Shown one piece after another: positions 14,953 through 16,676 of a stretch of DNA of 64,000 nt. The notes below the pieces were generated by a model. That model did not search any database and was not told where the DNA came from. It worked only from the letters and a program-made list of their open reading frames with translations. The stretch is from Neptuniibacter pectenicola (lineage in GTDB: Bacteria > Pseudomonadota > Gammaproteobacteria > Pseudomonadales > Balneatricaceae). Each line of letters opens with the position of its first letter. Within the stretch, counting starts at the first letter, position 1. The position numbers were made by a program, and so were the translations under genes. Location: the NCBI RefSeq assembly GCF_001597735.1, contig NZ_LUTS01000010.1, forward strand, positions 1 through 64,000, in the 5' to 3' direction.

Positions 14953-15693
14953 TTACTCTTTAACCTGCTTCTGGGTGGCCGTTAAGATGCCACGCAGCAC
15001 ATTCACCTCAACCTTATCCAACAAGGAACGAAGGTATAGGCGGCGCAATCTAGGCATTAATTGACGCGGACTATCTGGGTCCAAAAAATCAATATCGATG
15101 AGCGTCTGCTCCATATGAGCAAACAACCGCTCTAGGTCAGCACTATCTGCCAAGTCGATATCCCAATCCGTTCCCCACTGCGGTTTATGCACCGCATTTT
15201 GCTCAGCATACAAACTCGCCATGCGTAGCTCATAGGTAATCACCTGAACAGCCGCCGCCAAATTTAACGAACTAAACGCCTCATTTGAGGGTATGTGCAC
15301 ATGATGATGACAAAGGTGAAGCTCTTCATTAGTCAGCCCACGATCCTCTCGACCAAAAACGATCGCGACTTTTTTATCCGTCATGATAGGCGATACGATT
15401 GAAGCCAACTCGCGAGGATCAACAATAGGCCAAGGGATATGGCGACCACGCGCACTTGTCCCAACAACTAACTGACAATCCGCAATAGCGTCCTCTAGAG
15501 TCTCGTGAATAACCGCACTCTCTAGCAGGTCCGTTGCCCCTGAAGCTCGCGCATCAGCATTGGGATGCGGAAACTTTTTAGGCGCCACAAGATGCAGCTC
15601 TTCAAACTTCATATTTTTCATTGCACGCGCGACCCCACCAATATTTCCAGGATGGGTAGTATTAACAAGCACGATACGCACATTAACTGACAT
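14953..15693 (-). CDS. trmJ: tRNA (cytidine/uridine-2'-O-)-methyltransferase TrmJ
   Basis: SPOUT-class enzyme methylating the ribose of position 32 in tRNAs. The 246-residue protein begins MSVNVRIVLVNTTHPGNIGG and has the C-terminal knot motifs IVFGREDRGLTNEEL and IPSNEAFSSLNLAAAVQ. The ATG at 15693 has AAGG eight bases upstream; a TTG one codon earlier is also possible. In many relatives cysE lies between trmJ and iscR, but here only the iscR promoter region does. Confidence 0.94.
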   Translation of the reverse strand: MSVNVRIVLVNTTHPGNIGGVARAMKNMKFEELHLVAPKKFPHPNADARASGATDLLESAVIHETLEDAIADCQLVVGTSARGRHIPWPIVDPRELASIVSPIMTDKKVAIVFGREDRGLTNEELHLCHHHVHIPSNEAFSSLNLAAAVQVITYELRMASLYAEQNAVHKPQWGTDWDIDLADSADLERLFAHMEQTLIDIDFLDPDSPRQLMPRLRRLYLRSLLDKVEVNVLRGILTATQKQVKE

Positions 15694-15814
15694 CAAATCG
15701 ACCTTAGAAAGTAGGAAACAACCTATTTTAACAGACCTAGCGGCATCAATTCAGCTATTAAGCACATCTAATCCCCGACTTAACACAAGCTTTTATTCAC
15801 GACTCTCCCATCAT

Positions 15815-15829
15815 CAGGTATAATACCTG
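15815..15829 (+). promoter_or_regulatory. Probable suhB -10 region inside a palindrome
   Basis: CAGGTATAATACCTG is a 15-base palindrome with a single central A. Its centre contains a perfect TATAAT (15819-15824). No good -35 box is seen at the standard distance. The site is 35 bases upstream of the suhB ATG, so it is a plausible promoter or operator. Confidence 0.5.
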
Positions 15830-15863: not shown

Positions 15864-16676
15864 ATGCAACCTATGGTTAACATTGCACTGCGCGCTGCTC
15901 GCGTCGCAGGAGAACAGATTACCCGCGCCGTCGAACGCTTAGATCTTGTAAAATCAGAACAAGCGGATGTAGCAAAATTAATCAGCGAAACATGTAAAAA
16001 AGCTGAATTAAGCATTACTCAGGCGATCCACAAAGCTTACCCAAGCCACAAAGTGGTTGGGGAGTACACTGGGGAACATGCACCTATTGGCGAAGGCCCT
16101 GAATTCACTTGGAGCATCAATCCAATTGACAGCCTATCCAATTTCTCCAACGGCTTACCAACCTTTGCACTTTGCATTGCAGGCCAACAGAACAATCGCA
16201 TAGAACACGCATTGATTCTAAACCCCATTACGAACGAAGAATTTACAGCTAGCCGCGGCCATGGGGCGCAGCTAAATGGTAAACGCTTACGCGTAAGCAA
16301 CCATAAAGGCATCGAAAACGCCTTAATCAGCACCGGCTTCTTCAATCGCAAAAATGATAAAGATCACCTCGAAACTTATCTCAATATTTTTCGCGATATC
16401 ACCACAACAGGTGGCACCCTTTATAACGGCGGCTCCCCTGCACTCAATTTAGCCTACACTGCGGCAGGCCGAATCGATGGCTATTACCAGATCGGCCTAA
16501 ATTACGGTGAGATCGAAGCAGGGCTTCTACTTATTCAAGAAGCTGGCGGACTTGTAGGGGACTTTAAAGGCAGCAATGATTTCCGTAAAAACGGTAATTT
16601 AGTTGCAGGCAACCCTAAAATGTTTAAAGCACTCACTAAGGCACTTCAACCATCACTTACTGATGATCTGAAATAG
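15864..16676 (+). CDS. suhB: SuhB-like protein, probably catalytically dead
   Basis: Clear member of the inositol monophosphatase/SuhB family by length (270 residues), colinear sequence and position beside trmJ. In E. coli SuhB joins the Nus factors in rRNA transcription, a role not requiring catalysis. Here most metal-site residues differ from the family: Cys44 where Asp is usual, WSINPID (Asn86, Asp89) for WxIDPxD, Ser90-Leu91 for Gly-Thr, and Gly215-Glu216 for the Trp-Asp pair. Glu67 is kept. The fold-defining parts EEFTASRGHGAQLNG and NLVAGNPK are intact. I infer a retained non-enzymatic role. Confidence 0.9.
   Translation: MQPMVNIALRAARVAGEQITRAVERLDLVKSEQADVAKLISETCKKAELSITQAIHKAYPSHKVVGEYTGEHAPIGEGPEFTWSINPIDSLSNFSNGLPTFALCIAGQQNNRIEHALILNPITNEEFTASRGHGAQLNGKRLRVSNHKGIENALISTGFFNRKNDKDHLETYLNIFRDITTTGGTLYNGGSPALNLAYTAAGRIDGYYQIGLNYGEIEAGLLLIQEAGGLVGDFKGSNDFRKNGNLVAGNPKMFKALTKALQPSLTDDLK

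Follow-up and report, generated by a model that had tools for sequence, protein, structure and literature searches.

The suhB gene carried by the 64,000-nucleotide stretch of Neptuniibacter pectenicola DNA that we analysed (hereafter the window) very probably encodes a pseudoenzyme, kept for rRNA antitermination and 16S rRNA folding. Earlier descriptions present SuhB as a widely conserved phosphatase with a moonlighting role in rRNA synthesis; to our knowledge, that role has been demonstrated only in E. coli, with data from P. aeruginosa in its support, and the weight of catalysis in it has so far rested on a few E. coli mutants. In the mechanism that we propose, the inositol monophosphatase (IMPase) fold would stay and the two-metal site and the phosphate loop would be gone, so that inositol phosphates would no longer be hydrolysed. 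SuhB would still dock on NusA through the AR2 domain and join NusA, NusB/E, NusG and S4 on RNA polymerase at the boxA-type leader of the rRNA operons, where the complex would shield rRNA transcription from termination and aid the folding and processing of 16S rRNA. The non-catalytic protein would be retained because this transcription job is still done. We infer both the lack of catalysis and the transcription role from the sequence.

The gene and its surroundings in the window are the following:
14953..15696, minus strand: trmJ, the divergent neighbour that marks the orthology of suhB
15796..15824, plus strand: candidate suhB promoter, TTCACG-17-TATAAT, not above chance in the scan
15864..16676, plus strand: suhB, 270 aa, IMPase-fold pseudoenzyme, predicted Nus factor SuhB

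The open reading frame starts with ATG, has no internal stops and is complete. The gene order iscA-iscU-iscS-iscR-trmJ, followed by the divergent suhB, is that of E. coli MG1655. The Pfam domain Inositol_P covers residues 2-261 of the protein (142 bits), and its nearest solved relatives are the SuhBs of P. aeruginosa (280 bits) and E. coli (204.6 bits, chain 2qfl). The identification as SuhB, proposed in the sequence-only reading from the trmJ context and full-length colinearity, was borne out by this synteny and by both alignments, and the gene is the orthologue of the Nus factor SuhB. The SuhB equivalog model NF008027 was by far the top-scoring NCBIfam model, with 228.5 bits against a cut-off of 332; since it describes the enzyme, inositol-1-monophosphatase, catalytic motifs included, a pseudoenzyme is expected to fall below the cut-off, and the low score weakens the naming by NF008027, not the orthology. 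An AlphaFold2 model, calculated from an alignment of the window protein and its relatives, reached a pLDDT of 91; by Foldseek, its best PDB match was P. aeruginosa SuhB (TM 0.92), and next came two structures with E. coli SuhB, its complex with NusA-AR2 (6ib8) and the rrn anti-termination complex (6tqn). The protein is thus homologous to SuhB over its full length and predicted to adopt the SuhB fold. When named relatives were compared, the window matched N. marinus at 94% and grouped with Neptuniibacter. A perfect palindrome, CAGGTATAATACCTG, was also seen at 15815-15829, over the putative -10 of the suhB promoter; it is incompletely conserved in genome G010, in which an apparent, very long suhB frame turned out to be a run of N in the scaffold.

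The active site of the protein is altered at these codons:
15993..15995, plus strand: codon 44, Cys in place of the catalytic-loop Asp
16062..16067, plus strand: codons 67-68, metal-ligand Glu retained, second Glu changed to Tyr
16119..16136, plus strand: codons 86-91, NPIDSL for DPLDGT (metal/phosphate motif); of the functional residues only Asp89 is retained
16506..16511, plus strand: codons 215-216, Gly-Glu for Trp-Asp, with loss of a metal-2 ligand

At the eight catalytic and metal positions (44, 67, 68, 86, 89, 90, 91 and 216) the window protein reads CEYNDSLE, compared with DEEDDGTD in canonical SuhB, so that six of the eight residues checked are replaced and only Glu67 and Asp89 are left. 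The substitutions listed in the sequence-only reading (D44C, D86N, G90S, T91L, W215G and D216E, with E67 and D89 kept) were all correct in the SuhB alignment; E68Y, affecting the second Glu of the EE pair, was absent from that list, and other active-site or neighbouring changes are K34A, R187Y and R188N. The complete metal site and DGT phosphate loop of a catalytic IMPase are missing and, without a two-metal site and a phosphate-binding loop, the protein would not be expected to hydrolyse inositol phosphates; the persistence of E67 and D89 makes residual metal binding possible.

That the protein is still an enzyme, with a metal site rebuilt from other residues or with a new substrate, we consider very unlikely. 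The two retained ligands would suit such an enzyme, as would the fixation of C44, Y68, N86, D89, S90 and E216 in the genus and the invariance of D89 in 23 aligned members of the family; at position 215 the genus members vary (W, S or G), the remaining changes being fixed or nearly so. However, the phosphate-binding Thr and the second-metal Asp have been lost, and the former site drifts across lineages with no new consensus (N, D, E, F or S at position 86; L, I, E, Q or R at position 91), whereas the canonical set is fully invariant.

The altered gene is not a damaged one. The same changes recur in ten genus members, each with an open frame; dN/dS is about 0.03-0.04 for the closest suhB pairs in the genus, in the same range as canonical Pseudomonas suhB, and the median pN/pS is 0.13, compared with 0.18 for the latter. 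These shared changes, open frames and low dN/dS rule out sequence error or gene decay, and suhB is under strong purifying selection despite the lost site, as befits a pseudoenzyme. It is also extremely improbable that the gene is a pseudogene or a paralogue in decay and that the genuine SuhB is encoded at another locus. Assemblies can miss genes, and this genome is in 203 contigs; however, the assembly has a completeness rating of 100%, relatives with complete genomes in one contig (e.g., G006) have the same degenerate syntenic copy, and the low dN/dS does not fit decay. The search for a second intact IMPase gene, recommended with the sequence-only reading, revealed no other SuhB in the whole genome, its three superfamily members being suhB and two phosphatases of CysQ type, both scoring above the cut-off of the curated CysQ model. 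Within the window's family, several genomes of genus g4 encode a single PF00459 protein: G013 and G028 have the degenerate SuhB, and CysQ was not found in them; in G447 (90% complete) no PF00459 protein was found.

The suggested alignment with SuhBs of the order and of Pseudomonas separated the two types clearly. The 51 Pseudomonas-type SuhBs compared were canonical, and all those read from Neptuniibacter, Marinobacterium, Amphritea, Pontibacterium, Nitrincola, Neptunomonas and two Osedax symbionts were degenerate, the six named genera covering the genus and family of the window. Among 167 distinct trmJ-adjacent SuhBs across the order, 74 keep all eight site residues, 92 keep one to three and a single one keeps five; the last, L145 from a genome of family f29 (DENADGAD), perhaps represents a loss in progress. 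The exact motif DPxDGTTN[FY] is absent in 166 of 391 genomes of the order, a figure that overcounts the losses, as f36, f37, f40, f41 and f43 retain an intact site and differ only at the position that follows DGT (S/L/K/H). Reading the trmJ-adjacent gene in representatives located true loss in families f1, f6, f7, f20, f27, f38 and f39, in part of f45 and in single members of f40 and f8. The altered motif differs family by family (e.g., EPFHGYSNL, CVIDDIANF, DAIQGQHLF and FPLLGRENF). In the rest of the class, 196 of 204 genomes have the canonical-type motif DPxDGTxN[FY], a broader pattern than the one used for the order, which suggests that the loss of the SuhB site is concentrated in the order of the window.

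A single origin of all degenerate SuhBs was rejected on the rpoB tree (p-AU 2e-13). With 65 genomes, this tree required five changes, four of them forced by well-supported branches; after removal of two partial sequences and one long-branch sequence, family f6 joined the big degenerate clade (support 91), and three changes were left, in the big clade, within f45 and within f8, the last (G363) based on a single gene truncated at the end of a contig. We therefore lowered the initial count of five, since f6 may join the big clade, to three plus the long-branch case G138: the phylogeny indicates that the site was lost at least three times, or four if G138 is trusted. In G138 (family f40; L291 and L201), rpoB evolves unusually fast (branch 1.39) and the degenerate SuhB is very divergent, which suggests an altered transcription machinery.

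We then compared the degenerate SuhBs at the 66 columns that are invariant in canonical SuhBs. Median family-weighted retention was 0.17 at the catalytic columns and 0.71 at the other canonical-invariant columns (p = 2e-4), and P3, W83, G134, R141, R143, E226 and G228 were fully kept. Two sites stand out in the window protein:
16284..16292, plus strand: codons 141-143, Arg-Leu-Arg, both Arg in 92/92 degenerate SuhBs and mostly missing from paralogous IMPases; predicted transcription-function surface
16626..16628, plus strand: codon 255, Lys, equivalent to E. coli Lys251, a member of the KL251/254 pair needed for NusA-AR2 binding

At position 255, the 90 degenerate sequences with coverage have Lys in 86 cases, Arg in three and Met in one (Lys/Arg in 89/90); all these counts come from sequences that share ancestry and are not independent, though they span at least three separate losses. 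By contrast, 12 catalytically intact paralogues located away from trmJ keep all catalytic residues, R141 in three cases, R143 in one and Lys255 in none. The residue patterns thus describe a double dissociation, in which degenerate SuhBs drop the catalytic columns and keep Arg141, Arg143 and Lys/Arg255, and intact paralogues do the reverse. As W83, E226, G228 and, mostly, G134 are common to the paralogues, they probably have a structural role; Arg141, Arg143 and Lys255 appear to be SuhB-specific. The equivalent of E. coli Leu254 is Thr in the window protein, and that of Arg184, a residue reportedly mutated in studies of RNA polymerase binding, has been lost in degenerate SuhBs. Many genomes with a degenerate SuhB (L203-L211; f6, f20, f38, f39, f45, f27) encode, at a distance from trmJ, a separate IMPase that is catalytically intact and bears the motif DPIDGTVN[FY]; no IMPase of this type was found in the window genome.

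The residue for contact with NusA-AR2 is preserved as Lys255; in E. coli, the KL251/254AA substitution changed the affinity of SuhB for NusA-AR2 from 94 nM to 141 uM, more than 1000-fold lower (PMC6614801). NusA with both acidic repeats (AR1-AR2) is present in the window genome and in the degenerate families. The rRNA leader of the window genome contains, before 16S, CGCTCTTTAACA, which differs from the E. coli-type boxA at one position, and then a boxC-like stretch, GTGTGGGCGCT. A stricter boxA pattern missed this site, whose first base differs, and it was found by direct reading; a match with at most one mismatch occurred in 0.05% of shuffles. Upstream of 16S in L300 (G109, family f39), the boxA-like AGATCTTTAAAA has three mismatches from the consensus and is weaker than in the other families examined. 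A non-catalytic regulator with another partner, for instance a sensor of inositol phosphate that is no longer a Nus factor, could account for the many surface residues that differ between lineages, but the loss of the DGT phosphate loop, the prevalence of Lys or Arg at the NusA contact and the persistence of NusA AR2 and boxA make it very unlikely. We also looked for inositol-1-phosphate synthase and found none in the 63 genomes searched, canonical and degenerate, so that both kinds of genome alike would be without de novo inositol synthesis by that route. This absence fits a dispensable catalysis and, being common to both, is uninformative as a correlate of SuhB loss.

Taken together, the purifying selection, the single SuhB, Lys255, NusA AR2 and boxA favour retention of SuhB for the Nus complex. 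The sequence-only reading had suggested that this lineage kept SuhB only for its RNA polymerase role: the separation of functions is supported, while the restriction to one lineage had to be abandoned, as the loss extends through the family and recurs within the order. A broader proposal, on which we are evenly divided, is that SuhB has been a pure transcription factor in much of the order since an early ancestor, with catalysis lost independently in at least two to three other lineages, that the surviving Arg139, Arg141 and Lys251 (E. coli numbering) mark the antitermination surface, and that the Arg pair makes an unrecognised contact with NusA, S4, RNA or RNA polymerase. Natural, recurrent loss answers by evolution which function of SuhB is seen by selection, and conservation turns into a map of the functional surface, with the three E. 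coli residues as testable predictions. Moreover, the annotation 'inositol monophosphatase' is probably attached, in many genomes, to proteins that very likely have no phosphatase activity. Pseudoenzymes as such are common; a clade-wide SuhB pseudoenzyme of natural and recurrent origin was not found in the literature searched, which takes in few subscription journals, and it appears to be new.

Among the known systems, E. coli SuhB resembles the window protein in gene order, length, fold, the equivalents of Arg139, Arg141 and Lys251 and the match to the rrn anti-termination complex structure, but it has a full active site and IMPase activity. P. aeruginosa SuhB (8wip; 8wdq with inositol-1-phosphate) is 49% identical and collinear, with a TM-score of 0.92; unlike the window protein, its active site is intact. 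CysQ and the DPIDGTVN-type IMPases belong to the same superfamily, but their catalytic residues are intact, the two Arg and the C-terminal Lys are mostly absent, and their genes are not adjacent to trmJ. A functional parallel comes from E. coli, in which the effects of suhB mutation are relieved without the phosphatase activity of SuhB, and variants that fail to bind RNA polymerase do not complement (PMC6614801, PMC4807359). As in the E. coli mutants devoid of IMPase activity (PMC4807359 and PMC6614801, citing earlier work), catalysis, here judged from sequence, would be gone and the cellular function kept; those mutants, however, were made in the laboratory, whereas the loss described here is natural, occurred in several lineages and has been under long-term selection.
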